A DNA stretch of 64,000 nucleotides. Origin: Eutypella sp. D-1. Its lineage: Eukaryota; Ascomycota; Sordariomycetes; Xylariales; Diatrypaceae. The DNA is taken from assembly GCA_023313575.1 (NCBI GenBank), contig JAJTTP010000004.1, positions 2,356,001 through 2,420,000 on the forward strand. The letters run 5' to 3'. Each line of letters begins with the position of its first letter. Position 1 is the first letter of the stretch. Position numbers and translations under genes: made by a program. This document shows, in pieces, positions 23,621 through 58,700 of the stretch. Below the pieces are notes generated by a model. The model ran no database searches, had not been told where the DNA came from, and saw only the letters and a program-made list of their open reading frames with translations.

Positions 23621-23651
<31 letters not shown>

Positions 23652-34939: not shown

Positions 34940-37657
34940 TTAGAGAATAATAGCTTTATGGTTCTTTACCATGTTATCGCGTAGATGGTCAAACGCCCAC
35001 AAGATATCCAAATATGCTGGCGCCACGATATATCTCCACATTGGCACCCTTTTTTGGCCCCTGGTAGCTTCAAGTGCAATAGCCGCAGCCCGTATCGCAG
35101 GCTGCCACAGCTCGTCGTGGACAACCGGTTTCGTCCCGCTAGACAGCTTACATATCCAAAGTTGGCCCAGCATCTCCAAGATCTTGCTCTGAATTTGACG
35201 GAGCTGATGGAAGACTGTGCCGATCGTATCCTCAAATAATTCGACAGACTCTGATTCCAGGTCGTTGACTTCGACTACAACCGTCCAGAGTATATATGCA
35301 ATATTTTCCAGAATTTTACTCTCAACGGGGTTATAATCAATCGATGTTGGAAACCGTGCTATCATCTTCAGGAGATCGGATAGCGCCGTTTGTTGCTCGG
35401 TGCAGAGAACATAGGCCTCCACCGCAGGGGTCCGGGGGAAGTCCAAAGGAGACTCTTGAGGAGTTCTAAGGTAGGTGTTGAACGTCTCAATAGACTGGAG
35501 GAGAGATTCGGATAAGCGGAATATATTATTGGTAAGTCTGAATGCACGGACGTCCGCGGCCATTGCTCTCACTAGTACAAACCGATATTCATCCTTCCAG
35601 AGCCAGAAACTATAATTCCTCGTGTAGGTGGTCTCAAGATCTGGTGGTGAATCTGGCTGCGGCCCACTCGTGACTGTAGTTAAAATATCATCGTCTCCTG
35701 TACCAACGGCTGATTCTATTTCGGCCTTGGGCTTAAGCGGGCAAGGTATATGTTGTATGCAGGTCGTAGAAGATAGGGTTTGACGAGCCGCAGAATCCAA
35801 TTCTCTGTACCACCAGACTTTCCCATTGCCTTGGACATCCCCCATCCACCACTGTTCAAGTTTCATAGCAATTTCGTTGTGGAACCTCGAAGAATCATCG
35901 CTGAAGAGCGCATTGGCGCATAGCCGAATCCATTCTATCGTATCAAATCCCGGCCTTTGATCCGCGCCTGGCGGTATAGACATGCTGAGAAGACAGTAGC
36001 CGATCACTTTGTACGAACGAGGGACGAGGCAGTCTCGCAGAAGAAGGAAGACATCGCCGTCACCAAGCGCCACGAGGTAGTCGTTCTTGCTTATCTGTGA
36101 GGTGGAAGAAAGTATTATAGTCTTTCCCATACTATCCGGGATGTCTCTGGTGAGGACATTATCGTGCGACTCATGTCTTGAAAATCCAGACAACCGGATC
36201 ATCACAGGTATAGTAATTAAAAGACTACCCGTAGAGGTGTGTACAGTGATATCGTTATTCAGCGTGTTTTGTATCCCGGCCAAAGCTTGGTGGAAACAGC
36301 GGGCGGATAGATATACTGGTGGGAATTTGGACTCAAGATCCGTGTGGAGATCGCGCCCTGTTATTGACGCTGGGAAGGTCTCCGGACCCGTCGGATCCCA
36401 GTGCTCCGGTTTTACGTGACGCCAATCCGGGACCCATGATGGCAGCCCAGGTTCCCTGTCGACTGAACAACAGTACAGGATCAGCGAAAGCCGCTGTTTC
36501 AAGAGGTAAGCAGCGACACCAGTGTACACTTGCTCGAACGAAAGCGCGTAGTCAGCCGAGAGCCCTTCCTTCTCGACGCCATTGAGTAGTCCAAGCAGAG
36601 CGAAGATTCTATCGCGAGGGTCAGATGTCGACGAGCTCGAGGTCTGGAATAGAAAGCGCGGAAAGTCCGCCGGCCCGTTCATGCGGAGTAGCTCGAAATC
36701 TTTGACCCAGACAGGAACATCGGCTTTTGGAAAGTGCGTCCTCACATTCCACAGCGCCAGATCCCACCTGACGACGGAGTCTCCGCAGTGGACGTAGACG
36801 TCGCGGGCGAGCACGATCTCCTGCAGGATCCAGAGGCGCGAGAAATAGCGCCGCGCGAACAGCTCGGAGACCACTTGCGTCGCGGTATCGGGGAACTCGG
36901 TGTGGTCATACACGTTTCTGAGGTGTTCCATGGCGGCCCTGCTGCCTCCGCTATGCTCACCAAGATAGACCAAGCACCTCTTTGCGTTCGAGTATATGTG
37001 GTCCATTAGGCCTACCTGGTGGGACTGCTCTGATGGGTTCGCCTGGTTGATGCAAACCGCGTCGACCCAGAGATTCCTCACTTTCTTGCGGTGTCGTAGT
37101 CTCCGGAGTGCGCCTTCACAGTTGAGGGTGATTGACAAGACATCCCAAGATGGGCCAATGAATAGGGGTCTCGTGCGCGACGTATCACGTTTCTCGTTGG
37201 CCCACGAGTACGATACTGCCTCGAATTTTGCCCCCCGCTGGATATTGGCGTGCTCCAATGTCCCGTGTAGGGGGTCGTCCCACTCTCCGGGCTGGAGATG
37301 TAGAACCCGGATCTCATCTCGGGCCATCAACGGCTGAAACCCGGTAGTAGAGCGCGATGGTGCAGATAATGATGATGAAGAATTCGGATTGTCTGATTCG
37401 AGATTGAGGGAGCAGATTAGGTCACCGGTCAAATCATTACCTGTGTCGTCGAGCACGCACTCGTCTACGTATTGTACAGACGAAGGCCAGGTCAAATTGA
37501 GTAAGGAGCGGTGGGGCTTTCCCACGTAATAGGGAGTCTCGGTAGGACCCGCGTCCACCCGCGACGGCGCAGTCCTGTCGCAGTAGGCACAAAAGGGGAT
37601 ATCGCCTGCAGGGTATACGTCGGGTTGCCGACATGTTTTGCTGTGCCAACGAAGCAT
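34940..37657 (-). CDS. HET-domain (heterokaryon incompatibility) protein
   Basis: One frame on the minus strand. From the ATG at 37657 (MLRWHSKTCRQPD) it gives 905 residues; an in-frame ATG at 37711 would add 18 residues. The three HET blocks are present: FEAVSYSWAN (about 145-154), LWVDAVCINQ (196-205) and RRYFSRLWILQEI (about 265-277). A region with FLFQTSSSSTSDPRDRIFAL follows, usual in this family. The N-terminus has a CxxC pair (FCAYCDRTAPS) that may bind metal. HET proteins trigger growth arrest or cell death when genetically different hyphae fuse. The C-terminal 500 residues show no domain that I recognise and probably hold the recognition part. No intron is required. The relic at 34401 shows that this locus has duplicated. 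Confidence 0.9.
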   Translation of the reverse strand: MLRWHSKTCRQPDVYPAGDIPFCAYCDRTAPSRVDAGPTETPYYVGKPHRSLLNLTWPSSVQYVDECVLDDTGNDLTGDLICSLNLESDNPNSSSSLSAPSRSTTGFQPLMARDEIRVLHLQPGEWDDPLHGTLEHANIQRGAKFEAVSYSWANEKRDTSRTRPLFIGPSWDVLSITLNCEGALRRLRHRKKVRNLWVDAVCINQANPSEQSHQVGLMDHIYSNAKRCLVYLGEHSGGSRAAMEHLRNVYDHTEFPDTATQVVSELFARRYFSRLWILQEIVLARDVYVHCGDSVVRWDLALWNVRTHFPKADVPVWVKDFELLRMNGPADFPRFLFQTSSSSTSDPRDRIFALLGLLNGVEKEGLSADYALSFEQVYTGVAAYLLKQRLSLILYCCSVDREPGLPSWVPDWRHVKPEHWDPTGPETFPASITGRDLHTDLESKFPPVYLSARCFHQALAGIQNTLNNDITVHTSTGSLLITIPVMIRLSGFSRHESHDNVLTRDIPDSMGKTIILSSTSQISKNDYLVALGDGDVFLLLRDCLVPRSYKVIGYCLLSMSIPPGADQRPGFDTIEWIRLCANALFSDDSSRFHNEIAMKLEQWWMGDVQGNGKVWWYRELDSAARQTLSSTTCIQHIPCPLKPKAEIESAVGTGDDDILTTVTSGPQPDSPPDLETTYTRNYSFWLWKDEYRFVLVRAMAADVRAFRLTNNIFRLSESLLQSIETFNTYLRTPQESPLDFPRTPAVEAYVLCTEQQTALSDLLKMIARFPTSIDYNPVESKILENIAYILWTVVVEVNDLESESVELFEDTIGTVFHQLRQIQSKILEMLGQLWICKLSSGTKPVVHDELWQPAIRAAAIALEATRGQKRVPMWRYIVAPAYLDILWAFDHLRDNMVKNHKAIIL

Positions 37658-38697
37658 GATTATAATAACCGGATGGTGGATTATTATTTCAGTAGAGGAA
37701 ATGTATGACAATTAGATACCGGAACTGGCTATTAAGATTATGGATGTGGTCTTGATGCCATAGATTTACACATTTCGAACCTTTACTTATTCACGCTTAC
37801 GAGCCTCGTAAGGACTAATGTGAGAAAGGCTAAATTTAGGAAACTGAATGACTGGGTTCCGCGGTAAGCATATGGGTTCTTAAGAGACGGGAAAAAGCCT
37901 TTTAAAATGCTGGACCCCACCCCAGACTTGTTATCCCTTCCCCTCACTTTTGATGATTACTGCTGCTTATGCTATGTAAGTTAGTGGCAGTGCATGTCCA
38001 AAGTCATCTTGTGGTTTTCACTGCCACATAAGTCACCCACAAATGCTGGCTTTTTGATGCACATGCTCGGTATTAGGATATATATATAGTAAGACGAAAT
38101 ATCTACACCCGTCAACTGAGTTGATTATTTATATGGGTGTTAATGAGAAGGGGGCGGCACGGATTCGAAAAGGGGGGGTATTCTCGGAAGCAACCGACTC
38201 TCTGACCCACAACTCCGGGCCGCCGCCATAAAGATCCACATCTAAACTTTTACCCGTCAAGCCCCCGTAGACGGCTCACAGACCCCCTGACCCCTTGAAA
38301 GATCCCAGACTAACTGAGTTAAGACTAAACTGTAACTGCCAGGACTGCAGGGGTAGTGTTAAACATGTTTCAGGAACCAGGAGTGGGTTTTGAGCGCTAA
38401 CGAAAGCTACCTAGGCAGTTAATCTTCAGCACGGAGCTCCTATTGATTGATTCTTCCAACTCTTCTTCATCATCTTTCACTTACTTACCGGTGGGATGCC
38501 ATAGTTCGCGATAATATTCAACATTCTCGATCTTTTCTCTTTCTGTATAGTGCTTGCTGGTCAGAATTTGTGTCTGTCTCTATTCTTCGTAATTAAAAAT
38601 CTAATTTATTAACATCCTATTTGAGAATTCCCGTCCCGACATCACCGAAAGTTCTTAATACCTTTCACCCACCATCACCACTGCCACCACCACCAAA
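37658..38697. other. intergenic, 1.0 kb
   Basis: Divergent promoter region between the HET gene and the SDR. The last 60 bases before 38698 are CCACC-rich leader. No gene is seen, and no exact TCTGACA element as found in the 43-50 kb promoters. Confidence 0.5.
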
Positions 38698-39871
38698 ATG
38701 AGTCAACCCGCACATTTTCCGCAGCAGCGGCGCGAGGAACCATGGTACTCTGTCGTGACTATCGACATGCTACTGAAGGTTCTGAATATTACTATACTCC
38801 ACCCGTTCGTGGCGTGGATCATCCCGCTATGCTTTCGCGCTGAGCACCATGCCTGGGATACGCGACCCATGATCGTCTCCATAGTCTGGGCCGTCCTGAT
38901 CACGCTCATCACGCTCTTTGACAAGTTCAGCCACAAGCTCGCTTACGGAATGCACCGCGAAGTTGATCTCTCCGAGGAGGTCATCGTTGTTACTGGTGGC
39001 GCCAGCGGTCTGGGTTTGCTGATCGCTGAGGTTTACGGTATGCGCGGCGCCACCGTCGCCGTTCTTGACATCGCCGACGAGCTGGAGAATCCGGAGGCGA
39101 GGGGTGTTACGTACTATAAGTGCGATGTGGGTGATCGCAAGAGGCTTCAAGAAGTTTCCGCGGAGATTGAACGTGATGTGAGCTTCCCCGTCCTATAATT
39201 CCATACCCCCCAGCGTTTATATAAGTAGACTAACATATGCCCTTCCGTCGCTCCCATAGCTCGGTACGCCCACGATCCTGATCAACAACGCGGCGCAAGT
39301 CATTGGAAAGACGCTCTTGGAAATGTCATTGGAAGAGGCGGAGCGCAGCCTGACCACGAACCTCCTCGCGCACTTCTACACCATCAAAACGTTCCTGCCG
39401 GGCATGCTGCAGGCTGAGACGGGCGGCACGATCGTGACGATTTCGAGCGTGATGGGCTCCTTGGGCGCGGCGCGCCTGTCGGACTACGCGGCGGCCAAGG
39501 CGGGCGTGACGGCGCTGCACAAGTCGCTGGCGGCGGAGCTGCGGCGCGACCACCCAGAGATCAAGACGGTGCTGGTGACGCCCGGCCAGCTCGGCACCCC
39601 GCTGTTTGCCGGCGTCGCCACTCCGCACTCCTTCCTCGCGCCCGTCGTCGAGCCCGTCGACGTCGCCAAGGAGATCATCAAGGCCGTCGATCTCGGTATC
39701 AGCGACCACATCGGCACCCCGCTCTACGCCCGCTGGATCGACTGGTACAACGTCCTCCCCGTCGGCCTGCAGAGGCTCGCGAGGGACTTCTCTGGCGTCG
39801 ATGCGGGCATGGGGACCTGGGTTGGTAGGAGCGGCCGCAAGAAGGCGGAGACTAGCGAGAAACTGATATGA
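38698..39871 (+). CDS. membrane-associated short-chain dehydrogenase (RDH/DHRS-like)
   Basis: Two exons, 38698-39177 and 39260-39871, with an 82-base intron, give 363 residues. Two hydrophobic stretches come first (LNITILHPFVAWIIPLCF, about 29-46; MIVSIVWAVLITLITLF, about 58-74), which should anchor the protein in the ER or lipid-droplet membrane. The SDR core follows: TGGASGLG (99-106), NNAA (169-172), TISSV (serine about 222-223) and YAAAK (Y236, K240). Such proteins reduce or oxidise retinol-like alcohols, sterol-type ketones or fatty aldehydes with NAD(P). It is convergent with the P-type ATPase gene next to it, so it might be the edge of the candidate cluster, but its promoter lacks the shared element. 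Confidence 0.9.
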
Positions 39872-40292: not shown

Positions 40293-42970
40293 TTAAAAGT
40301 GTATGATTCTAATTCTGGAGCTATTCAACAGAACAACAATACTACTGAACCCCATTCCTACACTAGCAAAAACCCTGGAGACATTGTGAGCTTGAGTCGC
40401 TATACGAATGGATTCCAAAAACTGGGGAGGGGGGGGGAGACTTACGATGACGACGGATACATCTGACCGAAAGCGCCTGCCGCGCCGAGTAGCGAGATGG
40501 TATTGTAGAACACCGCCCATCGGAAATTCTGGGTGACGATGTGTAGAGTACGTCGCGAGAGCTTCACGAGGAAGAGGACTCGGCTTAGTACCTCGTCTGA
40601 GTCCCGACCCGCGGCTGTATGCGGCATCAGCGTCGCGTCGGCGAGATCCGGGTGATCCGAGGACCACGCGTCGGGGATGTAGATACTGAAGGAGGCAGAC
40701 TGGAAAGACGGGATGTCGTTCAGGTTATCGCCCACGAACACCGTCGGTCCCTGGCGTCGGAACCTCCTGACGATATTTGCTTTCTCGCCCGGTAGACAGC
40801 CTGAGAAGACCATATCGACGTCGATGCCGACACGTCGCGATGTCGCCATCGCGGAGGCGTAGTTGTCCCCGGTGACCATGCCGACTTTGAGACCCAGGTC
40901 TTTGAGGCCCCTGATAGTAGAGACGGCGTCGGGTCGGATTTCGTCCTCGAGGACTAAGATCCCGGCCTGGACTCCGTCGACTGCCACGATGACCGGTGTG
41001 ATCATGGCGTTCCTTAGCTCTGTCGGCAGCCGCACCAGGTTGACGCGCACGCCTAGGGATTCCATGTACGCCGGGCTCCCGATGGCTAGGGTCCAGGACT
41101 CCGATCGCGACGATCTGGAGACCTTTACGACCCCCTTGACCCCGCGACCGAGCTCATGCAGGATCTCAGTTACCGTCACCTTACCCTTAATGCTGTCAAG
41201 ACCGGCGATCTCAGGCGCGTGGTTCGTGGTCTGCTGGGCGGCTTCGGACGTAATTGCCTGCGCTACCGGGTGGCGAATGTCGGTCTCGAGGTCCCGGATT
41301 ACGTCCCAGAGTCCGACGCGCCAGTTCTCCTCGTGGATCGTCTGCGTGACTCGTAGCACCCCGCGTGTTAGTGTGCCGGTCTTGTCGAAGAGGATTGTCC
41401 CGGCCGTCGAGGCGCTCTTCATCCGCTTGCTGTTGGTAGCGAGTCGCACGCCGGCTTTCGAGGCCCGGACTGCGAGATGTTAGTTTATATGTGTCTTGAG
41501 CTGATGAGGATGGTATAAGTGAAGCTGAGACTACGGACCTGTTGCTAATAGTTTTGCAGTCGGGATGCTGAGGCTGAATGTGCACGGACATGCTGCGAGT
41601 AACATGGCCGAAGACCGACGCAGCACGTCTTCGAGCGTGGCGCCGGGGTTGCACAGAAGATGGAACACGCCAACTGCCGCGGCAAGTACCATGATGGCAG
41701 TAACGAAATACCGAGTCAATGCCGAATCTTGAGCACTATCTCCGCCAGAGGAGGTTAACTCTGCGCTGATGACGGATTCCAGCACTTTCCGGAGCTGCGT
41801 CGAGCGTCCGCATGCCGTCACTTCCAAGACGATATCGCCCTGTTCCACGCGGCTCCCGGCTAGCACGGTGTCGCCGCCTGCCACAGCTCGTGGGATCGTA
41901 GAACCGCTTATCCATGTCTCGAGGACCAGAGCGCTGCTCGAGCTGTCCAGGACGCCATCGCAGGGTAGCCGATCCCCTTGGCGGACATAGAGTTTATCGC
42001 CGGGGGTAAGCATGGTCGTGGGGACTTCGTCTGACTTTTCCGCGTCACGGCCATGGCATACCAGCGCAGTGGTAGGGATGAGGCTAATAAGCGGCGTTCC
42101 GAAGTCCAGACTCCGCTCGGACACGATGGCCTTGAGAAGCCGGCCGCCGAGGATGGATGTGGTGAGTATCGGTATGACATCCAGCTCAGGCTGGTATAGC
42201 CATTGCTGCGGTCGCGTCTTGACACTGATAACAGCGGCCTGCGCCAGGACCATCGCGATACCGAGAGATCCCAGCGTAGACATGTTGGCCTTCCGGCGAT
42301 GCCATATGCAGCGCGCCGTCTCGAGATGGATGGTTGATCCAGCTGCGAGGCTGAGGGCAACCGCGAGCGATATAATGAGGTTCACCGAGACATTCTGTCG
42401 TAATCCCGGAAACACCGTCGACGACAGATATCTAGCCACTGCAACCGTCGAAGAGCAAAGCGCCGAGACGAAGAAGGCGTGACGCCAGTTCCGGATCCCA
42501 TACTCGCGCGTGACGGCGGATTGCTGAACCGTAGACACGACCTCCGACCAAGAGTCGGAGTTTTTGGCAATTGATAGAAGCCGGGCGTCGTATCCAGTCG
42601 CCTGGATAGCGTCGGCTATAGACCCCGGCGAAGTTTCGGCAGTGAAGGTGACGTGCGCACGCAACAGGCTCAGGGAAACGGACGCGCGCACGACTCCGGG
42701 GACGTCTTCGACGATCCTCTGGACCTCGGAGACACATGAGCCGCACGTGAGCCCGCCGAGGACTAGGACGCATCCTTGAACGGTGTGTTCTTGTTGTCTG
42801 GGTATTGGCGTTGGTTGGGGCTTCTCGTTCGGGCTCCACAGTTCCGGTTCCCGTCCATAATCACACGGGTCTGTCAGTGTTGACTGCTTTGTTTGAAAGG
42901 GGGTCGATAACCACTCGTGCACCTTTAGGAACCGGAAGACGATGTACGCGCCGATGGCACAACAAGCCAT
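40293..42970 (-). CDS. heavy-metal (Cu-type) P-type ATPase with altered catalytic motifs
   Basis: Three exons on the minus strand, 42970-41539, 41469-40446 and 40374-40293, give 845 residues; the last exon adds MGFSSIVVLL, the usual final helix motif. N-terminal HMA domain with GLTCGSCVSEV (about 73-83), membrane helices, ion-site CPC (461-463), phosphorylation site DKTGTL (D506), HP (544-545), TGDN (677-680). Several motifs are off consensus: the A-domain TGE is SGS (about 355-357, ISGSTIP), the CPCALGLATP helix reads CPCTFSLSIP, and GDGxND is GDNLND (724-729). The A-domain glutamate normally drives dephosphorylation, so transport may be impaired or changed. By family it should move Cu+ or a similar ion across a membrane. 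It is the first gene of the proposed cluster; its promoter has three TCTGACA copies. The unusual donor of intron 1 is GTCCGT. Confidence 0.9.
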
Positions 42971-43308
42971 GATGTGATTGTTGACCCATTGATGGAGACT
43001 GGTTGTCTACTCGTCGGGCTGCTAGTGCGTCCTCTCATCTTTGAATGAAACGATATCCGTGCATGCAAGGGTAATTACAGGTAATTCGGCGCGTAATGCC
43101 GCATGATGTTGTCTAATGGATCGACTTGTCCGACCTACACAACTCCGATATCTGACAGTGATTTTTCTGACAAACATCTTCCCCCCTGTGGGGATGCTTA
43201 ACGCGGCCCCACTGGTGTCGGCGCTAACATGTCATGTTTTTCTGACAACTACGAAGTACTAGTCGCTTGCCATGATCACAGGACCATAGTCACTAAATAC
43301 GTCTCGAA
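42971..43308 (-). promoter_or_regulatory. ATPase promoter with TCTGACA elements
   Basis: Plus-strand TCTGACA at 43151-43157, 43166-43172 and 43241-43247. The first two lie in TGACAGTGATTTTTCTGACA (43153-43172), which matches TGACAGTGAATTTTCTGACA in the Ldi-like promoter at 19 of 20 bases. On the gene strand it reads TGTCAGAAAAATCACTGTCA. Confidence 0.6.
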
Positions 43309-45162
43309 CTAAATATACCGGTCCCCCATTCTGGTCCGTTGACCCGGCCTTCCTGAGACCCTACCAACCAAATACCGCGGCAGAGGATGCCACTTCGCAA
43401 GCGGATACGGCTGCGCGACACGAATTAGCTGGCTTTCGTTGATACAGGGAAGTGTTGATGCTGCCTTGGCCTTACCTGTGGAACAGTCCAGAAACGGATA
43501 TTTCGTTGCGAACTCCTTGCTCAGTTTCCACCCGACCATGTCGTCGAGTCCGAAGAACAGGGCGACCTCGTTTCCACCGCGGACGGCTGCTGCTGGTGAC
43601 GCGATCGCGTCTTGGCTGTGACAGCCTACTGGAGCATCATCCCGCATTCGCCGCTCCAGCTCGGACACCAGTGCCTCTTCCACGGGGTCGGCCGCAGTTA
43701 GGTAAAGAGTTTGGGCTTCCGGCCCCAGCTCGAAGAACGTCCAAGAGGGATCGTTGAGGTAGCTTCTCGTGGACGTCGCCTGCGACCCGCGCCTCTTGTC
43801 CCTGCGTTGGATCTGATTTTGGAAGATATCCATTACGCCGACGGCGACGCCCAGATGGGGCTGTTCAATGACCGAGTGAAGGATCGTGTCCTTGATGAGG
43901 GCATCGTAATCGCACTGGTTCTGTTCCAGCATAATCTGGTCACGGATATCCGGCCAGTTGATGAGGTCAATGCTCCAGTAGTCATGTAATTGTTTAGCTT
44001 GCAGAGGTGTCGGTCTAAAGGGCGACGGCACGCAGTCTCTGGCCTCGAGTCCGAGACGCCAGCTCAACACCTTCTCGATGTAGCGCGCCCCGTTCTATCG
44101 AAATCGCAGCATTGGTATTTCAGTAAGCGATTCCGTTAATAAGTAAGCGCCCGGGCTGCTCGCGCGACTTACCACTCCGTAGATATAATTCTCCAAACCG
44201 AGGCAACGGGCTATGAAGCCCGTGGCAGCCGTGATGAGCTTCTTGTTGAACTGCTCGGGGACGATTGTGGTTCTTGACATTGGAATGGAAGGTTCACTTG
44301 CTTGTTTCATGCATCGACGACACGCGTTCAGTATCTTTGAGCCAAATTGGTTCACGGATGTGACGGCGATGGTTTTGAGGGTAGTAGCCGTGGTGTTCGG
44401 AGAAGTGGGGATCAGCAATGATGACAAGGAAACGACACCTATTCCTAAGACGTCCGGCCCGGAACAAAAATCGCCGGACTCGTAGATGTCTGTGCTAAAA
44501 TCAAATGCTGCTGGGCTTTCCTGTAAAGTGTTGTCGTGAGAAATAGACGTGCTATTGAGCATGCCGACATCTCTATCTCCCAAATCTTGCGCGGAAAAAA
44601 AGGTGCCAGTAGACTCATCCAGGTGTGTCTCCGTCTGTCGGTCTTGCTCTCGATCCTGTGATTCTAATCGAGAGCGAGGTGTCTCTTGACATTCGCGGGA
44701 CGTTGTGCGAACGCTCTGATCTTGGCTCCCGTCCTGGCGTCCCAAAATGGAGTGAAATATTGTATCGTCTTACAAAAATAATTAGAACCTTGTAGATCAA
44801 CCGTGCGAAGGCGAAAGGAATAACTGACCAGCGGCGCTAGCGGCGGCATTACTCAAGCTTAGAAGCTTCTTCCGGAGTCTGAATAAGGCCTCTTCTAGCC
44901 TCTGGTTCTCCTTCAACAGCTTCAAATGAGCCTTGACCAAGGTCTCATAACGGTCTCGACAGCCTCCCCCATCGGTATCCGTGATCGTATTCTGAAGCAG
45001 TTCGACCGCATTCTCGAGGTTCCGAACGTATGCGGCATTCTTCTCGCGGAGGCACTGTTGCGATATGCGATTCTGCGCTCGCTTCCGTTCTGCCGGCTCC
45101 GCACCCGAGTCGGCTTTTCTCTTCGGTGGTCGGCGAGAGGACTTATTATCAGCAGGAGGCAT
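43309..45162 (-). CDS. bZIP transcription factor with DUF3425-like C-terminus
   Basis: Three exons on the minus strand, 45162-44829, 44768-44173 and 44094-43309, give 571 residues. Basic region: ERKRAQNRISQQCLREKN (about 25-42), with the N-x7-R spacing of bZIP proteins but an unusual ISQQCL in place of the common AAQR-type core; a leucine-zipper-like coiled coil continues to about residue 105 (LENAVELL, LLKENQRLEEALFRL). The middle is acidic and Ser/Thr-rich. The C-terminal third (SWRLGLEARDCVPSPFRPTP, then LQAKQLHDYWSIDLINWPDI) is the helical DUF3425-type region that follows many fungal bZIPs. Such proteins are often local regulators of metabolite clusters. It sits inside the proposed cluster, and the TGACA half-sites in three neighbouring promoters fit a bZIP (TGAC) half-site; direct binding is inference. 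Confidence 0.88.
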
Positions 45163-45832
45163 TGTTTATTAGTAGCGCAAGACGATGTATGATTGATAAG
45201 GAAATTGGCAACTCCGCCTGTGTTGGAACAAGAGAAACAAGTTTAAGATGCTGTTGGAGTACGTAGAGTGGATACGATAGTCTTTATTAGCACCGGTCTA
45301 GGAGGTGAAGGGGCCACAAGATCCAGGGTCAACTAGATACCGAGGGCCCGGGGCCACGGCTGTGGGGAACCGGCGACAGTAGCCAGGGTTATGCTTGTAC
45401 ACAACTTGCTGACGCTATTCAAAACTCAACAACCTACCATTGGCGCTCGTGCTTGTCGTGTGACCTCGACTTCTCATCTGTTAGAAGCTTTCGACGTCCC
45501 ATGGATAAGTAATGCGTGGATAGGGTTTGGCCAGCCGATCTACGGATTGATTACTCCGCAAACTAATATGAGGATTAATGAGCTGCTTGTTTAATCCATG
45601 AATGAAGAGAAAGATATAATCAACTATTACATGGCGTATATGGTGACGTTATTGTGATCCACCATTCCACCCTTACATCACCGTACTGGAAAGGGGATAG
45701 AAGTTATTGTTTTGCTTCAATTTGCTTGAATAACTATGTAACTGACCAATCATCGAATATCCTAGACCGTGCATAACAATATCTCGCCTGACCCAAATAC
45801 ATTTCATGCATTAGATGATCACTCCTTGCACG
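45163..45832. other. intergenic, 0.67 kb
   Basis: Promoter of the bZIP gene and 3' flank of the Ldi-like gene. No exact TCTGACA element and no gene seen. Confidence 0.5.
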
Positions 45833-48069
45833 TTAGGTCCTTTGGCTATCATCTGGTACGATGTGTAGATGCGTTCTACCGCCGACCAGAACCGACAATG
45901 ATAGGCTGCCTTGATCATCCGCGGTGAACGTCTTCCCCTGGCATGTGTACCGTCTTGCTGGCTCCAGGCGAGTAACGCCCAGCTTGAAGGTTCCTGCATC
46001 CGCAGAGGGATAAAGGACAAGTTCTAGATCTCTAGATGAGTGCGACCGGGCTTTTGCAATGAGCACGCCAGGATAGGGCACCTCCGACAGGATCGGACCT
46101 TTCATGGCCGCTTCGGGTGGACCCTGTGTATGAAGAGACAGAGGTTAGCGTTGAACATAAAAATAATCTCGCACTGTCTGTATCTGGACTTGCCCTCTTA
46201 ACAAGGCGCTCGTAGGCACCCGGTTGAAGGAGCGTCGCCTTCAAAGTCTCATAGTTCAGTAAGGTGGAAGCTCGGGACGGATCGAGGTGCTTCGCGCCCG
46301 ATGGTTCAGTCACGTAGCCCCAGCCCTGCTCCATTTTGTCCAATGCTGCCTTCTTCAATGCTTCGTCGCCATGCTCTGCAGCGGCGCAGGCAGTCTGTGG
46401 TAGTGGAGCCAGTGAGTTCTTCTTATAATTCCCTGGGTCAATAAGATCTGCGCCAATCAAGCCCTCGAAAGTAATATCGCGTGTCTTCTCGTTAAACCTG
46501 ATCGTCTCCTCACGCAGAATTGCCCACATGCGACGGGAAAGATGTCGAACCGACGCGCCGGCCAAGTCTACCGCGGTCAGATCTCCTGTGGCGGCACAGA
46601 GCCCGGGGATGGTGAAGCCAGTCAGCTCAGACCGTATGGTTAGAACACTACCGTCTTTGTTGGAGAAGTTCGTGTTTAGCGACTCCTCAAAGATAGGAAG
46701 AAGTATATCTGTAGACTTGGTGCCGAAGAATCGATCGTATGCGATGGCTCCCATCATTCCCTGCAGGTTGCATACGACGTAAATCCAGTTGGGCTCGCAG
46801 GGGATTAGGAAATACGGATTGGCGGACCACTGCCTGACGAGAGTCGCCTGGAGGTCATGAAGACTGTATTTATAGGTAGCACCCTTCCCAAGGCAAAATT
46901 CCAGGCTACCGGGCTGTGTATATCTCAGATCGCCGGTATTAGCTGTATACAGCATAACGCCTTGCAAGAGGAAGCCCGATACCATGATATTATCATTTTG
47001 GATTGGGTCCGAGTCGAACGAGAACTTTCCCGCAAGCCTCTCCCATTTCCAAAATTTGAGAATATCCGGCGTCAAAGACTTCTCTATCACTCTGCGATAC
47101 GCCTCGTTGATGTAGCCGTGGGCATTGGGGACATAGGTGCACTGATACAAGGCCAGGGCGTACATCATTTGGTATAGCCGATACCGCATCGCAGAAGTCT
47201 GAAATTGGTCGATTCGAACGAACCCAGACCAGTCGTTGATACTCTGAAACGCGTGGTCGAAGAGATATTGTACCTTCCGGAGGGATTCGAGATCGAGCTC
47301 GTAATCTTCCTCTCGCGTTGCAACATTCGAGGCGGTCTTGTCTAGTTCAGCCAATCGCCGGGGTATGTACTTGTTCCTCTCGGCTCGTCTTTTTACTGCC
47401 CTAGCTCTTTCGGACGCTGATGAGGCGTTGGCAGATAAGAACACAATGGCTAGGAGGGTTGGAGCTAAGATGCCTGCGGGTTCCCAAACTGTGTCCTCAG
47501 TCGTGATGTAAGCACCAGCAATGGAAAAAGTCCAAACCAGCAGCGGGAAGACAATAGCGCCAGCTCCAAACCACTTTACAACCAATTAGTTAGTAATTCT
47601 TTTCTCTCCAAGAATACAACAGGTAGTTACTGACGGCAAAGAGTGAAAATGGAACAGCTAGCCATGTGAGGGCTAGGAGTACAGCGCCCAATATGTTGGC
47701 GCTGGCAAGGTATCCGGCGCCCGGGAAGACGAGCCCTAGAACTGCTGCCCTCAACCTTTGATCGAGGCTGTACCATGGTTGGAAGAATATGAACACTGCG
47801 CCTGCAGCAACTAAGGACCATACCACAAGGGTGGTGGTCTGTACACTTTTACGGTGTGGCCCGGTTCCGGCATTAGGTGGTATCAGCTCTCGGAAGTAGG
47901 GATCTAGATATTCCTAGTCGTCAGAAGAGCTGAAAAGCATACCGAGTGGTAAAAGATGGAAGGGCGCAGATGGCGTACTTTTAACCCCCACGACATTAGT
48001 TGAGTTTGACTTGTTCTTTTCATTGTAACGCAAATCCGAGCCTGATTTCGTGTCCTGGTGAAGGTTCAT
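45833..48069 (-). CDS. membrane-tethered linalool dehydratase/isomerase-like protein
   Basis: Four exons on the minus strand, 48069-47943, 47903-47635, 47573-46194 and 46123-45833, give 688 residues. The last intron appears to be GC..AG (GCAAGT..ACACAG) and restores RLVKR to GPPEAAMKG; a GTTAAG donor six bases upstream is the alternative and also keeps frame. Residues 60-190 hold about four hydrophobic helices (VVWSLVAAGAVFIFF, LTWLAVPFSLFAW, GAIVFPLLVWTFSIAGAY, ILAPTLLAIVFLSA). The following (alpha/alpha)-barrel-like part carries PCEPNWIYVVC with C391 and C400, nine apart as in the two active-site cysteines of bacterial linalool dehydratase-isomerase, plus QNDNIMVSG. By family it should act on an allylic terpene alcohol or related prenyl substrate. 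The substrate and the reaction are unknown. The promoter shares a 20-base element with the ATPase gene. Confidence 0.82.
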
Positions 48070-49040
48070 GGTGGAATTTCTCTAAGTTGCTGGGTCAGGT
48101 TGGAAAGTATGTTGCGAAGCAACAGCGTGAGGCGAAGAAACGGGGCCCTGTGATATAGAGTGGGCGAAAAGGTCTAATATCGACTTTACTGAGCGGCTCA
48201 AGGATATTGCAACTATTAGGCAAACATAATACACAGCGTTTGTGCCGAACTTCATAAGGAAAACACCAAGAAGGCCAGTCTCCAAATTATGAAGGTCTGT
48301 TCTACTTGACTCTAGACCTTCATCACTTCATGTTGACCGAGCTCAAATGTGACAGTGAATTTTCTGACATCTTATAAACATTCACGCTACCGAATATGGA
48401 TGGCGTAGCATATAGTTCGTGGGACACAAGTGGGGAAGTGCTTGGCTCTGAATTATATTTATTCACCTCGGTCATGTTGTTGGCGGAATGGATAGGCTTC
48501 TTAGCGAGCTTTCCCATAACTAACAAGGTATGGTGGTAGGCAAGATCATCGTGCCTTTAGGGGTTGAAGCATCCTGAATTTTGAGATCAAAACTCGATCA
48601 TAGTAGGATTATATTAGCATGAGGGGACCTATGTACTCCCGAATACGTGACTCATAGTCTGCCCCCAGCTTTTGCAGCACCTCGGGCGTTGCAACTCAAG
48701 AGAGACCCCCCAAGAATTTATCAAGTCGTCCAAGTACTTCACATCTATCAAGCATATGATACAAACAATTTCATTGCGAGAAAACCCTGTATTTATCATA
48801 TTTTCTGATTTTTCGATTCCTACTTCGTTATTATAATACAATGCTACAATTCACGGCTATCCAGTCCGTTCGAATAAAGCCCGAGGGCTACATGAAATAG
48901 TTTTATCTTCTGTTTCAATGGACAGGGGGGCTTTTTATATACATAATTGTAGGGTCTTGCATAGAGTTGTGTTGGATAATTGACTCCTACCAGTCAATTA
49001 TAGCACTGCCTACTCTATAACTTCGACACTCTATCACTTC
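48070..49040 (-). promoter_or_regulatory. promoter of Ldi-like gene and spacer, 1 kb
   Basis: TGACAGTGAATTTTCTGACA at 48350-48369, about 280-300 bases upstream of the Ldi-like start. On the gene strand it reads TGTCAGAAAATTCACTGTCA. The remainder is AT-rich with no supported gene. Confidence 0.55.
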
Positions 49041-49644
49041 CTAAGCAAGCCTAGTAAGATAGAAATAGTAAGTACCATGTTCTACAAGATCCTTGTTTGA
49101 CATTGCTCCCATGACAACGCCTTCTGACACATAGCGGAAGAAGTCGATAATAGGGAACTTGTCGTAAATCATGGCCGCCGTCACCACACCCCGAAACTTG
49201 ACCTCCCGTAGCTGTAATGACAACGGTTAGATACTGTCTGTTTCAATAAATGCGTTGCCAACTCGACCAACCTGTGCATGCCCGTACTGCTGAAAATGTA
49301 CACGGTTTCCTTTCTCATCCGTGATCATGATAGGGTCCACGTGATCGACTGAGTGGAAATCCTTTCCAGCCCAATTAAATGTGGTCAGTTGCTCGTGAAT
49401 AGGATGGCCAGTGTCGAAGCTCCCGCCTTTCCACTTGCCGACCAGAGTCTCGGGAGCAACTGGTGGGAGAGCATTGTAGACTTCCTCGACCTCGGTCTCC
49501 TTGACCTTACCCCCAGTCTTGACGATCTTATTGAAACGTTCTACCGCACTATGTAATCGCATTGTCAGCGCTACTATTTCACCATGTGGCGCCTTAGAGG
49601 CATACGGAATATGCTTGTGAGGTCCCAACTTACGATGAGGCCAT
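49041..49644 (-). CDS. GXWXG/DUF4334 domain protein
   Basis: Three exons on the minus strand, 49644-49634 (only 11 bases), 49548-49272 and 49211-49041, give 152 residues (MASSAVERFNKIV...). A start at an ATG inside the upstream reading (about 49562, MRLHSAVERF) is the alternative and gives the same downstream protein. The N-terminal part contains LVGKWKGGSFDTGHPIHEQL, the GxWxG motif (GKWKG), and NWAGKDFHSVDHVDPIM. The last exon (LREVKFRGVVTAAMIYDKFP, then IIDFFRYVSEGVVMGAMSNK) is the DUF4334 part, ending in YFYLTRLA. These domains occur together in small, mainly bacterial proteins of unknown function, probably binding a small hydrophobic ligand (inference). It shares a 450-base divergent promoter with the SDR at 50095, which strongly suggests co-expression. 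Confidence 0.82.
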
Positions 49645-50094
49645 TGTGTGTAAATTCGTTATTCAACAGGATATAGCTTCAGATGCGTTGCTTTAGAGTA
49701 TGAAGTGTAGGATATTGCGAGAATTAAAGTTTTTCGGTCATGTAGCGCGGTGCTTTGATATACAAGAATGTCCTCGGCCGGAACTAGCGGGTGGATGTGG
49801 AGCGGAAGTGGACTGCGGGAAAAAATGTCTCAGTCAGAAACATCTGACAAGATCAGGTACGATGGAACTGACCAGGTGATCTGCAAAACCTACGTATGTA
49901 GTGAAACTTAAATGCCTCTGTCAGGGATTCGTTGTCAGAAAAAAGTGACAATTGTTCAATCCTTAGACCCGTAAGTTATACAGGCGGAGGAGCAACGTAG
50001 TCAATTCGTTTAGGTATAAGATTCAGAGGTTGATTGTGGAAACTACGGGTGGTAATAATTAGCTAGTATTCCAGCTGCCGCTATCTATTTCACC
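49645..50094. promoter_or_regulatory. divergent promoter of DUF4334 gene and SDR
   Basis: Contains a perfect inverted repeat GTCAGA-AACA-TCTGAC at 49833-49848; TGTCAG at 49919-49924; and TGTCAGAAAAAAGTGACA at 49933-49950, itself an inverted pair TGTCA..TGACA. These resemble the elements in the ATPase and Ldi-like promoters (TGTCAGAAAA). Confidence 0.6.
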
Positions 50095-51319
50095 ATGGAA
50101 GCAGCAAGTATCCTTGACATCACTGCCTCTAAAGGCCGCGAGCTGTTCGCTCTTGCCCATTCGTTTCTTAGCGGTGACCAAACATCACATTTGGCCCGCG
50201 CTGGCCTCGTAGCCTCGGCTGCTGCATTGTCTCTCTACACATTGAATAGGGCCTTGAATATTAGGGCGTTGAACCATGGGACGAAAGCCTCGTTTGATTG
50301 GTCGAAGGAGATTGTTGTTGTCACGGGAGGATCAGGTGGCATCGGTGGTGAGACCGTGAAGCGCCTCGCTGCCTCGGGCACAACAGTCGTAGTGCTGGAT
50401 CTGATCCCCCTGACGTATAAAAAAAGCAAGCCAGCCCCACCAAAGCGGGAATATTCAGGAGGAAATTGCTAACTTTGAGTACTACAGCGAGAAACATTCA
50501 CTATTACCAGTGCAACTTGACCAACTTTGACCAGCTTCAAAGCGTAGCCGCTAAGATTCGAACGTGAGTTGACGCAGGATATGCGCCAGTTAACATTGAG
50601 CCATATTTGACAATGCAATTTTAGCGAGGTTGGCGAGCCGACAGTAATCGTTGCGAATGCTGGAATATGTCGCGGGAACCCAATACTTAAGGCTGAAAAG
50701 AAGGATCTTGAGCTGTCAGTCACCCCACCCCCCACAAAAAAGGAAAATTCTTCTATCCCCTATTTTTATAGCGTTCGTCTAACTTCAACCTCTTACCTTA
50801 CCTAGTACTTTTGGCGTCAATGCCCTAGGCATCCTATTCACCGCGAAGACCTTTCTTCCCGCTCTAGTCTCGCATAATCATGGCCATTTCCTGATAGTGG
50901 CTTCGCAAACCGGCTATCTCACCTTGACTGGAGGGACCGACTACTGTGCAAGCAAGGCGGCAGCGATATCCATTTACGAAGGTCTACACAGCGAAATGAA
51001 GCATTACTACAAGGCACCGGCTGTCAGGGTGTCGTGTATCTCACCCACTCATGTCCAGACTTCACTCTTCAAAGGCATTGATAATCCACCGGGAATGGCG
51101 AGCATCACCCCACAGTCACTTTCAGAGACAATTGAAGGCGTCTTGAAGAGCGGGCGTGCGCAGAATCTTCTTGTGCCCAGTTCCATCGCACTGACCCTGA
51201 CTAGGGCGCTTCCAGATTGGGTGAGAATTTTCTTGCAGGACTGGTCGGCAGGTGCTCTTAAGGACTTGGTGCCGCGCAATGATGTAGCAAAACTTGCTAC
51301 ATCTGGTGCAAGAGACTAG
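50095..51319 (+). CDS. short-chain dehydrogenase/reductase in the cluster
   Basis: Four exons, 50095-50425, 50488-50563, 50625-50714 and 50806-51319, give 336 residues. The first intron reads best as GC..AG (GCAAGC..CTACAG, branch GCTAAC), joining LTYKK to TRNIHYYQCNLTN; a GTATAA donor 11 bases upstream paired with a nearby AG is the weaker alternative. A hydrophobic segment LVASAAALSLYTLNRAL (about 38-54) may tether the protein to a membrane. SDR motifs: TGGSGGIGG (77-85), ANAG, and YCASK as active-site tyrosine and lysine. It belongs to the same membrane SDR type as the gene at 38698. The likely role is NAD(P)-dependent oxidation or reduction of a cluster product. It is transcribed away from the DUF4334 gene from a shared promoter. 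Confidence 0.9.
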
Positions 51320-53407: not shown

Positions 53408-55216
53408 ATGCTGTGGGACACTACCACAATAGCGGCCACTGTTACGCGGCAGTTCGTGTGTTCCAATCTTCCCACTGATGAGATCGAACACTTAGATCGA
53501 CCGTTGGCATTCGCCGGTGGGTTAACTGACGGCACCTATTGGGAATGGATCAACGAAAAGGCAAAGAGGTTATTCCTCATTCTCGTCGACCTTGGATGCC
53601 CAAACCAGATATTCGCCCTAATCGACGATTCCTGGGATGATGACGATCTTCCAATTTCCATGGAACAGATAGGGCGTCTGGCCTTACCAGGTGTACGAGA
53701 CGAGCGGTTCGATCGCAAGTTTTATTCCCGCCAGTTCCACTATTTAATAAGATACCTGGATCAGGGTAGTCACATAGTGTACCATGAGGACGAAGTCGTA
53801 CCTCTAAGCGTTGTGGATAGACGCCCGGCCTTAAACAGCGTAGCAGATCGCGTTGAAATATCAAATAGGCCTGGTGAGGTCTTCTCCCGTCGACGTATTC
53901 CTCTAGGTAGTGGCGCAGGCCTCGTCTCGTACGAAGAGTTCATCCATGAAGTGAACAACGCGAAAGACGTCCAAAACAATCATATCGCATCGTACTATGG
54001 ATCATACACCCAATTGGGGTTCGGGTACGTCCTTTTCTCCCCGGTGAGCGACTTCAGCCTCAAGTCTCTTTTGACTAGCATGCCCACGCCGGTGAAGGCA
54101 CTTGACAAGCTGGTCCGGCGGGAACTGGTGATGAATTGGATCCACTGCCTGGTCGACACACTCTGCTATATCCACTGCCGCGGCAGCTCGTACGGGAACA
54201 TTAAACCATCATCAGTCCTGTTCGATTCAAGGAACAATGTATTCTACACCGATCTTACGCGCTTAAGCGGGGAATCCCTTTCACTCGCGACGTCTGACAG
54301 ATCTGCATTTGACAAGGAGACATACGACTATGCAGCACCAGAACAATGGTATAGGTCCTCCGCAACCAGTCTCGCCACTTCATCATTTCGGAACAATATG
54401 TCAGGCCCCACATCACCAGATAGTACCAAATTCAGCATCAATCGAGAACTAGGAAATAGCAATCGCAGTGGAAGCAATAGCGAAGGCAGTACCTCGCCCC
54501 GCGCCCTGCACGGCACACCAACCCCTAATCTGAACCCCCAGGCGGCTGACATATTTTCTCTTGGATGCGTGATCCTGGAACTCCTCAGCTTCCAGATGAA
54601 ACGCCAGACGAAGTCATTCGCAAGTCACCGGGCGACCCGGCACAAAACACCAGGCCGTGGCGGCGCTATCCCGGACTCCTCGTTCCACAAGAACCTGACG
54701 CAGGTAGAATCGTGGATGACGGGTCTCGCGAAGGATGCGGAGAAGAAGATTGGCGCGAAGAAGACCAGTAGCGACGACGAACAGTCGAAGAGGGTGTTTC
54801 GTGGTGTCACGCCGACCCTCCACCTCGTTGCCCGCATGCTTGCCGCCGCGCCCCACGAGAGACCCACCGCCAAGGAGGTCGAGCGGCGCATGTATAGCAT
54901 CCTCACCGAGGACTGTGGTATCGTAGAGCCGCATTGCGTGCACGAGTATGGCGACTGGGACTTCGGGCTGGGAAAACTACGGATGGCAGATGGCGAGTTG
55001 GGTGATAGCGAGCGAATAGTATCCACCGCGGCCGCGACCGCGCCGATGCAGGACCTGATGAGACCTGATAGCGGCTCAAGATCTGAACCACATTCCCTTT
55101 TGCACGGTCGGCATAGAAGCAAGGATCGCGAGACCATAGGTAGTTACGGTGGTCATAGCGATCCTGGAATCTCTCGTCCCGGCATTAATGACGGATTCCA
55201 TGCGCGGGCCTGGTAG
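53408..55216 (+). CDS. fungal protein-kinase-like protein, probable pseudokinase
   Basis: A single frame of 602 residues starting MLWDTTTIAATVTRQFV. The first 160 residues (LAFAGGLTDGTYWEWINEKA, ALIDDSWDDDDLPISMEQIG) belong to a known fungal-specific kinase-like family. The kinase fold spans about 160-520: RRRIPLGSGAG replaces the glycine loop, the catalytic loop reads YGNIKPSSVLF (about 262-272) where HRDxKxxN is expected, DLT (282-284) stands where DFG should be, and AAPEQ (309-313) keeps the APE motif. A 100-residue Ser/Asn-rich insert precedes DIFSLGCVILELL. Without the catalytic Asp and the metal-binding Asn it is unlikely to transfer phosphate, so a scaffold role is inferred. A short upstream exon cannot be excluded. 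The C-terminal tail is disordered. Confidence 0.85.
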   Translation: MLWDTTTIAATVTRQFVCSNLPTDEIEHLDRPLAFAGGLTDGTYWEWINEKAKRLFLILVDLGCPNQIFALIDDSWDDDDLPISMEQIGRLALPGVRDERFDRKFYSRQFHYLIRYLDQGSHIVYHEDEVVPLSVVDRRPALNSVADRVEISNRPGEVFSRRRIPLGSGAGLVSYEEFIHEVNNAKDVQNNHIASYYGSYTQLGFGYVLFSPVSDFSLKSLLTSMPTPVKALDKLVRRELVMNWIHCLVDTLCYIHCRGSSYGNIKPSSVLFDSRNNVFYTDLTRLSGESLSLATSDRSAFDKETYDYAAPEQWYRSSATSLATSSFRNNMSGPTSPDSTKFSINRELGNSNRSGSNSEGSTSPRALHGTPTPNLNPQAADIFSLGCVILELLSFQMKRQTKSFASHRATRHKTPGRGGAIPDSSFHKNLTQVESWMTGLAKDAEKKIGAKKTSSDDEQSKRVFRGVTPTLHLVARMLAAAPHERPTAKEVERRMYSILTEDCGIVEPHCVHEYGDWDFGLGKLRMADGELGDSERIVSTAAATAPMQDLMRPDSGSRSEPHSLLHGRHRSKDRETIGSYGGHSDPGISRPGINDGFHARAW

Positions 55217-55724: not shown

Positions 55725-58700
55725 CTATTTCTTCCCTTTCCGCTTCTTACTCTCCTTATCCTCCTTATCCTTACTAGGAACTTTCTCCTTGTCTTTGCCT
55801 TTGTGTTTCTTCGCCTTCGCCCTCTTCTTCTTGCTCGATTCATCATCAGAGCCGCTAGAAGCTCCGTCGGACGCGCTCAACCCACCTTCCGAGCTAGATG
55901 ATGAGCTGCTGCTATCTGATGACGATGACGATGAACTTGAATCTGAACTCGAGAATGGGTCACGCCTGTCTTTCCTTCCGAGAGGCATATGGTCTCTACG
56001 TTTGTACTCATAGTCGTCGTAGCGTACCATTTCTTTGAGTGCGTTCCTTGCCTCGTCGTTTTTGCCATGTGTGTGGAACAGATAATCATCAAATTGCATA
56101 GACGCCTTCGCGATGGTCTTGAATTGCTTCACGGAAAGGATCGGCTGGCTGTGTTTCTCGCCGCCGACATCGAACTCGGCTAGCGCAACGGCCGTCTGGA
56201 ACGCGTTCCGAATCTGTCTGCCGTTCCACGAGAGCGTTTCCCAGTTGTTCTTAGCGAACTTCATGATCTTCTTGTGCTGAATATCGATGGTTAAGTTTCC
56301 GCTCTCTTGACGCTTCTGGTTGAGCTCCCTGACTCGACGCAGGTTCATCTCCCAGATTTTTGCTGTTTGCGTCCGAGCCAGCTTTGGATAATATAGTGTC
56401 AAGTGGAGGCGCGATCGAAATGCATCATCAAACGTGCCGACTCGGTTTGTCGTTAGAAATAGTATACCTGGATAATACTCTAGAATCCGGAGGAATATAG
56501 ATACCAGTCCATTTCGCTTCAGGTCATCTCTCTGTTTCATGATTAGTGTCTAAGATCAACTGAGAAAAACGGGTCATTGCATACACTTCTCTTTGCTAGA
56601 AATACGTCTGCTTCATCCAGGAGCATGACACATCCCCACTTATGAGCTAAGTTGAAGTGGTTCTCCAAGTTGCGTTCAACATCTTCAGGCTCATACCCAA
56701 TATCTCCTGAGGCTGATGTTAGTAATATGCAACACGCATGGAGGGCAAGTGACTGTAAAATGGGGCATACCACAAGTGATTGGAAATAGCGGGCGCTTGG
56801 TAAAAGCGGCGACACATTCTGCGCCAGAGTAAGTTTTGGGCCTCTGTAAAAACACAAGGTAATAAGACGCACCAGCTGTTGAGGTTTTCCCTACGCCAGG
56901 TTCGCCATGGAGAAGGATGATGCAGCCTTTGCCTAGTAAAAATTAGTAGGGGTAGCTTATCTGTTCTCTCGTGTTTCCCATACCTTTACCGCGGACAATA
57001 TCTACTTCCGCGGTTGCCTTGTCGATTCCAGCGGTCGATCTTGACCCTGCTGTGTGATTTTCAACCACTGCCCTCACCATGTTCTTGTGACCCGATGGAA
57101 GAATCAGATCGCCCCATCCTTCCTCTTTCGGGATATTCTGGAGATTACTCAGATTAAGGGTAACTGTGAAAATTGTCAGAAAAAGGAACCCCAATTTTCT
57201 CAGATGCAACGAACCCCATCGCCGATTCCGTAGCGCAAATGCATAGACCGTGCCAGGCAAGAGGAGAACGTGTTCGTTCTTTATCATTTCCTCAATGAGG
57301 CGTTCCTTGTCAACGGGACTTGAACATGGTAGAGACGGATATGATTGTAGCTTATTTGATAGGTTATTCTTAGTATTTTGGATGGAGAGTACTTGGTATC
57401 GCCTGTACCAATCTTCTGGAAACTCATGTGACGCCGGTCTATCTACCGAAATTTCTCCGTTCATCGGGCCCAATTTGTCAACAGCAACTGGAGAAAATGG
57501 CGGGACTAACCCGGGCTGATTTTGATACGCTAGGCTAAAATCAACAATTACGGGTGAGTTTATCTATAGCGGTGTCAGTGGATGATCTTCGCTAGTAAGC
57601 TCAAGTCAAAGCCACGGTTCGAAATTGAATATTACCTCTTCAATCCTTGAGCCGACGGTTAAGTTTTCGTATAATTGATGTGATATTTCACAAACCTCAA
57701 TAAACCGATGGCCTCGCTCTTTGAGTGCTTCAGGGATGGATGTTGTTCTTGTGACCTTCATACCATCACCGTGCATATCCGCAGGAGAAGCATAGAGTAA
57801 AGGGTATGCCTCTAAGCTAGTGACATCAACAGAACCATCAAACGGCTTGAAAGTAAATGAAGTAGCGACGCAATCAAATTTCGAACCAGTAAAGTCGACA
57901 TAGTAACATTCTACTATCAGCGGCGCGACTCGACCGGACAATTGTCTATTCCTTGGTCCTACATGATGAGAAGGATAACTTATTACCCCACCGCTGACTG
58001 CGGCAACACGAAATGCTTGAGGAGCATAACGATTCGCACTTTTGCGTGGGTTACTTGTACTCAAGGGGTCATATGGCTGCGATGGCTGTTCGTAGGCCCC
58101 TGTTACTACACCCGGTGGAGGCGGTCGTTGTGGGGCTGGTGCTGTTGCTGTAGACCGCGTTGGTTCCGGTACCCGCCGGAATGGTGTATATATGATGTCG
58201 CCTGGTGTAAACAGTGTCCAAATCCTCTCAAACTAGAGCGATTCGATCTTTCCAGCTCGAGCATCTCGGTACGCAGCCAGGTAGTTATCAAGATGCTTGT
58301 CCAAGAATGAAACCAAAAACTTGAGTTGACTGACCAGGTCAGTTTCATCTCTCGCTTCTGAGGCTCTGTATTCGTAACTGGTATGTTGGGTTCTTTGCGA
58401 AGAATGCTCCTCCCCCTTTTCGACTTGGTCACCCAATGAACCGTTGTCATCAGAGTCTCTACACTCCTTGGAGTTGGCGGTGCGAAGGACGCCTCCGACT
58501 CTGGGTGGTTCTTCCCGATCACTTTTGCTGCCCTTTTCGTCTTGGCTATTGGAGGAAGTTAATTCGCTTTCTCTAATATGGTACTCAAAGAGATCTCGAT
58601 GTTGGATCAGCCAACGGAATGGCTTCCTAAAGTGCAGCATGTTTGGTAAGAATTCATCTGCTGAGTCTGAGGATTCCGCGGTAGTTGATCCCCGGGAACT

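Follow-up and report, generated by a model that had tools for sequence, protein, structure and literature searches.

What is a linalool dehydratase/isomerase (Ldi)-like membrane protein doing in a filamentous fungus, in a row with a heavy-metal ATPase, a bZIP transcription factor, a small GXWXG-DUF4334 protein and a short-chain dehydrogenase (SDR)? The question comes from a 64,000-nucleotide stretch of Eutypella sp. D-1 (contig JAJTTP010000004.1), here called the window, in which these five genes are neighbors between positions 40293 and 51319. We find that they form a real, probably co-regulated cluster. Our preferred reading, which we hold at a probability of about 0.5, is that the cluster serves the use or detoxification of a prenyl alcohol and has at its core an isomerase of the linalool isomerase (Lis) type and a membrane-type SDR. 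This isomerase–SDR core recurs in other fungi.

Gene models spliced by hand from reading-frame and splice-site evidence, with domains assigned by Pfam, bear out the existence, place and order of the five genes proposed in a first-pass annotation of this DNA. The central gene (48069–45833, minus strand) encodes a membrane-anchored Ldi/Lis-type protein of about 675 amino acids, recognized from Pfam (PF18566, 283 bits against a curated cut-off of 26.1), the spliced model, hydropathy and alignment. Its exons run from 48069 to an uncertain junction with five options, then 47907–47635, 47573–46194 and 46123–45833, and an additional 3' exon after a GC-AG intron is backed by alignment to relatives. 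About four N-terminal transmembrane segments (hydropathy maxima at residues 52–70, 100–118, 117–135 and about 147–172) precede the Ldi domain, which is followed by a C-terminal extension. Among 8,000 candidates scored we found 178 homologues, and those listed (120 of the 178) include many ascomycete proteins as well as full-length bacterial ones, with 33–38% identity for the named matches. Among the listed matches of the cluster proteins, the nearest come from Fusarium, Neonectria and Clonostachys. In 19 aligned homologues the same layout of hydrophobic N-terminus, Ldi domain and C-terminal extension is seen, one of them having a shortened start. A quick tree of 105 rows, rooted at the midpoint, places all 21 fungal rows, the window protein included, in one clade with a support of 100 among bacterial ones.

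This layout is that of the Thauera linalool isomerase, the best published match, so that the window protein is more than a fungal version of the Castellaniella enzyme. The Lis of Thauera linaloolentis 47Lol is described, in the accessible part of its report (PMC4791888), as a 644-residue protein with four transmembrane helices in its first 139 residues and similarity to Ldi only behind them; its activity is found in the inner membrane, turns geraniol into both linalool isomers and needs a reductant. The window protein has the same Lis features (a length near 640 residues, about 675 against 644; about four N-terminal transmembrane segments; an Ldi-like domain confined to the C-terminal part), a comparison based on the published description of Lis (ENO87364). 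It differs in having a fungal host and in its companions, which are the GXWXG-DUF4334 protein, the copper-type ATPase and the bZIP protein rather than the atu and geoAB genes given for Thauera in the available text of PMC4847356. With the Ldi of Castellaniella defragrans (5hlr, 5g1u) it shares the Ldi domain and the catalytic pair C170/C179, but that enzyme is secreted and soluble, whereas the window protein carries membrane segments and a C-terminal extension.

The two cysteines of the motif CEPNWIYxxCN are invariant in all 44 aligned rows and, with residues counted by eye, align with C170 and C179 of the solved Castellaniella enzyme, whose exchange is reported to abolish activity (PMC6600392, accessible part). 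The C48–C101 disulfide of the Castellaniella enzyme, in contrast, is not conserved: ahead of the part that aligns to chain residue 102, the window protein has a single cysteine (264), and upstream of that region no column of the family alignment has cysteine in at least 30% of rows. The host genome, searched as 48.47 Mb in 72 contigs, holds a second Ldi gene (contig C1, about 549,100–550,730; L002–L006), for which the frames that we read show no clear membrane portion. A paralogous cluster at that gene was considered and rejected; the open reading frames (ORFs) around it, judged by eye only, resemble genes for an acyltransferase, a sugar transporter and a phospholipase D, and none of the other four cluster families was recognized among them.

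The other core enzyme is an SDR of 335 amino acids (50095–51319, plus strand; exons 50095–50414, 50480–50563, 50625–50714 and 50806–51319). It matches Pfam adh_short at 118 bits and carries the motifs TGGSGGIG (read by eye), NAG and YCASK; its N-terminal segment is hydrophobic, with a hydropathy peak of only 1.17. Its best relatives in the PDB are HSD17B11 (1yb1), HSD17B13 and then borneol dehydrogenases, which we take to be enzymes of hydrophobic alcohols. An isomerase with an alcohol dehydrogenase nearby, joined in some Fusarium by an aldehyde dehydrogenase (ALDH), recalls the bacterial ldi/lis-geoA-geoB modules as they appear in the accessible parts of PMC4109377 and PMC4847356. Unlike those modules, the cluster has an SDR of the HSD17B11/13 kind, no atu genes that we saw and no ALDH in the window.

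The remaining three genes may supply regulation and support. The bZIP gene (45162–43309, minus strand; exons 45162–44829, 44768–44173 and 44094–43309) encodes 571 amino acids, with a bZIP_1 match under the Pfam cut-off (24.1 bits against 27.6) and a DUF3425 match over it (39.3 bits). The ATPase gene (42970–40293, minus strand; exons 42970–41539, 41469–40446 and 40362–40293) encodes 841 amino acids of the P1B (copper-like) heavy-metal P-type, with E1-E2_ATPase, HMA and HAD Hydrolase domains at 99.8, 37.8 and 95.8 bits; the HMA domain, a CPC motif and DKTGT mark it as P1B-type. Copper is its likely rather than proven metal, because the NCBIfam models matched below their cut-offs (heavy-metal TIGR01525 at 328.8 bits against 346, copper TIGR01511 at 253.4 against 397). 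The GXWXG-DUF4334 gene (49644–49041, minus strand; exons 49644–49634, 49548–49272 and 49211–49041) encodes 152 amino acids with both domains complete (87.8 bits for GXWXG, 93.9 for DUF4334), and it is the single GXWXG match found in the genome. The solved relative of this family, 4mve, is uncharacterized; structure prediction for a Clonostachys relative (P0121) gives a lipocalin-like barrel, and a calycin/lipocalin-like fold is tentatively predicted for the GXWXG protein here as well.

Regulation in common is suggested by a 10-bp element, TTTTCTGACA, with four copies in three of the four cluster promoters, at 43163, 43238 and 48360 (plus strand) and 49933 (minus strand). Two copies lie in the ATPase promoter (42971–43308), one in the Ldi promoter and one (49933–49942, minus strand) in the divergent promoter between the GXWXG and SDR genes, so that four genes are served. 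The first copy lies in a 23-bp repeat (43150–43172) that recurs in the Ldi promoter (48347–48369, plus strand) with 21 of 23 bases identical, and the 21-mer STGACAGTGAWTTTTCTGACA occurs at these two places only in the whole genome. With one mismatch allowed, TTTTCTGACA is absent from the bZIP promoter; the earlier statement that all five genes share promoter elements therefore stands for three promoters serving four genes and fails for the bZIP gene. As a word the element is neither rare nor common, since we counted 80 sites over the 48.47 Mb of the genome and 72 for the reversed pattern. Four copies in 6.8 kb compare with 0.011 expected from the genome count (P = 6e-10, for a motif picked after the region had been seen). 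Shuffles of the four intergenic stretches, made without reference to the motif, gave any 10-mer four times in 0 of 1,000 cases, and in 0 of 200 did the ATPase and Ldi promoters yield a 23-base match as good as the 21 of 23 observed. The shared element thus supports co-regulation of the ATPase, Ldi, GXWXG and SDR genes. The window has a fifth site, at 57174, beyond the cluster, and elsewhere in the genome (contig C23) two sites 272 bp apart fall within an apparent subtilase coding frame, a caution that the element also turns up with no significance.

A second membrane-type SDR adjoins the cluster at 38698–39871 (plus strand). We considered it as a sixth member and left it out because its promoter lacks the shared element; at up to one mismatch, none was found in that promoter, between that SDR and the ATPase gene or 3' of the cluster SDR.

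Linkage in other fungi was read from identical contig sizes and locus tags; the comparison took in every listed row (120, 14 and 87), two of them without a contig size. On ten contigs Ldi is joined by one or more of the partner families, SDR being present on eight, GXWXG on two and ATPase on two. The eight Ldi–SDR contigs belong to Neonectria ditissima, Fusarium phalaenopsidis, Fusarium sp. NRRL 66182, F. subglutinans, F. phyllophilum, F. tjaetaba, Claussenomyces and Grosmannia clavigera. The two genes are close, with tags one or two apart, in F. phalaenopsidis (03519/03521), NRRL 66182 (1097/1099), Claussenomyces (003010/003011) and N. ditissima, where GXWXG is g8233, SDR g8235 and Ldi g8236. 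In F. subglutinans, F. phyllophilum and F. tjaetaba they share a contig of 26–105 kb at a distance not seen, and in G. clavigera the common scaffold measures 2.3 Mb, so closeness is not established there. GXWXG accompanies Ldi in N. ditissima and on a contig of 74,791 bases, and ATPase does so on that contig and on one of 10,929 bases. Two of the SDRs linked to Ldi, those of F. subglutinans and F. phyllophilum, are annotated as fused to an ALDH, which could be either a real fusion or merged neighbors; similar fusions are annotated in F. proliferatum and Fusarium sp. NRRL 52700, where the listed matches show no link to Ldi. In Clonostachys rosea a single 1.35-Mb contig holds GXWXG, SDR and bZIP genes, neither closeness nor Ldi being shown there.

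How could such a cluster work? The membrane-anchored isomerase would convert a tertiary into a primary allylic prenyl alcohol, as in linalool to geraniol, with the CEPNWIY..CN cysteine pair as acid–base catalyst, and the SDR would oxidize the primary alcohol to the aldehyde. An ALDH, here presumably encoded outside the window, would then yield the acid. The bZIP protein probably regulates the cluster; as guesses, the copper-type ATPase may keep copper off the thiol enzyme, and the GXWXG-DUF4334 barrel may bind or present a hydrophobic substrate. We infer the substrate, the direction and the roles of the partners from these comparisons. The first-pass annotation had suggested modification or cyclization of a prenyl alcohol: action of Ldi and SDR on such an alcohol fits the family evidence, with isomerization and oxidation better supported, whereas cyclization found no support. 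The fullest version, a eukaryotic pathway of the linalool isomerase type that joins a hydroxyl shift to oxidation under a dedicated promoter element, with the copper-type ATPase and the GXWXG-DUF4334 barrel as partners, is a tentative proposal that we ourselves rate as doubtful.

If true, it would give DUF4334 its first pathway role and connect the Ldi family with the control of metals or thiols. With an isomerase route, a fungus could deal with tertiary terpenoid alcohols and need no oxygenase to do so; such a route would also offer new biocatalysts for linalool/geraniol chemistry, show that synthase-less loci can escape cluster finders and give a testable context for GXWXG-DUF4334 proteins. 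In the open-access literature searched we found no description of an Ldi/Lis-type cluster from a filamentous fungus. Fungal Ldi homologues had been noticed earlier, as the Castellaniella paper lists Stereum hirsutum, at 25%, as the fungal best hit (PMC4109377, accessible part). A geraniol isomerase is mentioned as part of a nerol route in the available text of a genome paper on the yeast Meyerozyma (PMC7789178), and that of a 2014 review describes fungal monoterpene transformation by laccases and P450s and, for Grosmannia, by efflux (PMC4097962). A Macrophomina population paper has a table with one GXWXG gene of unknown function and, in the accessible part of its text, does not mention linalool (PMC10282554).

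Several observations weigh against the prenyl-alcohol cluster as we propose it. The histidine of the GHL motif, which we take to be catalytic in the Castellaniella enzyme, is replaced by phenylalanine, tyrosine or tryptophan in all 44 aligned rows, so substrate or chemistry may differ; the second Ldi gene of this genome, unlike the window protein, keeps it. Co-occurrence in related genomes, whose absence would have counted against the earlier proposal, is borne out for Ldi with SDR and, in fewer genomes, for Ldi with GXWXG or ATPase, but a bZIP gene was found on none of the Ldi contigs compared, gene order varies among fungi and no relative among the listed matches has all five families on one contig. 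F. oxysporum and F. fujikuroi, both with Ldi, are not named among the 14 GXWXG matches (17 candidates scored, some of the matches without a name), and comparison with the Fusarium SDR–ALDH fusions gave no ALDH match in the window. Among bacteria (the best 80 of 119 relatives, giving 79 distinct loci), none of six catabolic families lies within 3 kb of Ldi at 52 of the 79; SDR does so at 14, ALDH at 7 and AMP-ligase at 10. None of the six is enriched relative to the 3–10-kb flanks (P = 0.24 for SDR and 1 for ALDH), acyl-CoA dehydrogenase is rarer within 3 kb than in those flanks (P = 0.006), and catabolic context is therefore a feature of some loci only. SDR neighbors are no more frequent in the half of the tree with the fungal clade (4 of 28 bacterial loci) than in the other half (10 of 51). 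A pairing of GXWXG with bacterial Ldi was rejected, as blastp and phmmer found it at 0 of 79 loci. Finally, the Thauera Lis gene was inactive in Escherichia coli according to the accessible part of PMC4791888, so a negative assay is weak.

Some further bacterial contexts may be recorded here. The Ldi locus on a Rhodococcus opacus plasmid is surrounded by ALDH, SDR, P450 and alcohol dehydrogenase genes, and a GXWXG gene is present, at whatever distance from Ldi, in one of five whole genomes with a long Ldi. The family is rare: in the order of a Massilia genome, 2 of 399 genomes match, the strong match being that central genome itself.

Could the Ldi-fold protein act instead on another isoprenoid, such as a polyprenol, a sterol side chain or a prenylated compound, in a family broader than monoterpenes? 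The conserved aromatic residue in place of the histidine would suit this, as would the bacterial neighbors: Ldi stands directly before a DAGK-family gene at 8 of 79 loci, an undecaprenyl-diphosphate synthase (UPPS) gene accompanies this pair at 2 of 79 loci and also on a plasmid of Aureimonas, and an MPAB/Lcp oxygenase gene is near Ldi at 8 of 79 (confirmed by Pfam in three). All these neighbors, however, lie outside the half of the midpoint-rooted tree that holds the fungal clade, and we regard an isoprenoid of another kind as possible but doubtful.

The bacterial pairs deserve listing in their own right. A long-Ldi gene is followed by a DAGK-family gene in L041, L054, L066, L068, L069, L070, L072, L085 and L095, with the UPPS gene 5' of Ldi in L054, L066 and L095; this arrangement is a possible prenol-lipid operon, as yet unstudied. 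An MPAB/Lcp gene of the rubber-oxygenase type is near long-Ldi in L045, L047, L052, L053, L057, L058, L063 and L077, seven of the eight in actinobacteria.

Alternatively, the five genes could be biosynthetic, turning the fungus's own geranyl or farnesyl diphosphate into a prenyl alcohol that isomerase and SDR tailor to a small volatile or signal, with the bZIP protein as regulator and the ATPase for self-protection or cofactor supply. The compact layout with a bZIP-DUF3425 gene, the co-regulated promoters and the few fungal GXWXG relatives (14 matches) speak for this. But a Pfam scan of 30 ORFs or exons, in a window that has further ORFs, turned up no prenyl-diphosphate synthase, phosphatase, P450 or transporter other than the ATPase, and it agrees with the first-pass annotation in that domains of a polyketide synthase, a peptide synthetase or a terpene cyclase did not appear. 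The ALDH fusion in related fungi would be expected for oxidation to an acid, and the characterized Ldi and Lis enzymes are catabolic according to the available text of PMC4109377 and PMC4847356. We consider biosynthesis unlikely and think it more likely, as in the preferred reading, that the fungus uses or detoxifies a terpenoid alcohol from plants or the environment.

The cluster might also be smaller than it looks, with Ldi, GXWXG and SDR as the unit and the copper-type ATPase and bZIP genes as a metal-response pair that is adjacent by chance. The bZIP gene invites this, having neither the element in its promoter nor a link to Ldi elsewhere, and a full P-type ATPase match is found at only 1 of 79 bacterial loci. 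Yet the ATPase promoter has the 23-bp repeat in common with the Ldi promoter, and ATPase homologues share the two Ldi contigs of 74,791 and 10,929 bases. The single bacterial case, L024, from an Oscillospiraceae metagenome bin, also brings the two genes together in what looks like an operon: on the plus strand, Ldi (9986–11911) is followed after 5 bases by the gene for a heavy-metal ATPase (11917–14043), which is overlapped by that for a DsbD-family membrane protein (from 14043), and then by an ALDH gene (15536–17020). The L024 ATPase scores 508 bits with the copper model (cut-off 397), and L024 is the longest end branch of the tree; the locus counts for the preferred reading as well. We judge a chance metal-response pair quite unlikely.

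A chance neighborhood with no common function draws on the varying gene order and on element pairs in coding sequence elsewhere, but is very improbable given the shuffles, the linkage on ten other contigs and a single GXWXG gene that adjoins one of only two Ldi genes.

The cluster is flanked by frames for a HET-domain protein and a protein kinase, by AAA-lid and DUF7025 frames and by a weak NPHP3_N match below the cut-off (34940–37711, 53408–55216, 55725–58064 and 61687–63018). Farther to the left, the window holds an FAD monooxygenase, a weak UDP-glycosyltransferase match and another SDR (3611–4738, 10732–11679 and 12930–13892). Between these and the cluster lies a 2,173-codon open frame (19311–25832) with no Pfam match, rich in S, A, P and R and with an AT-hook-like RKRGRPRK; it looks like a disordered nuclear protein.

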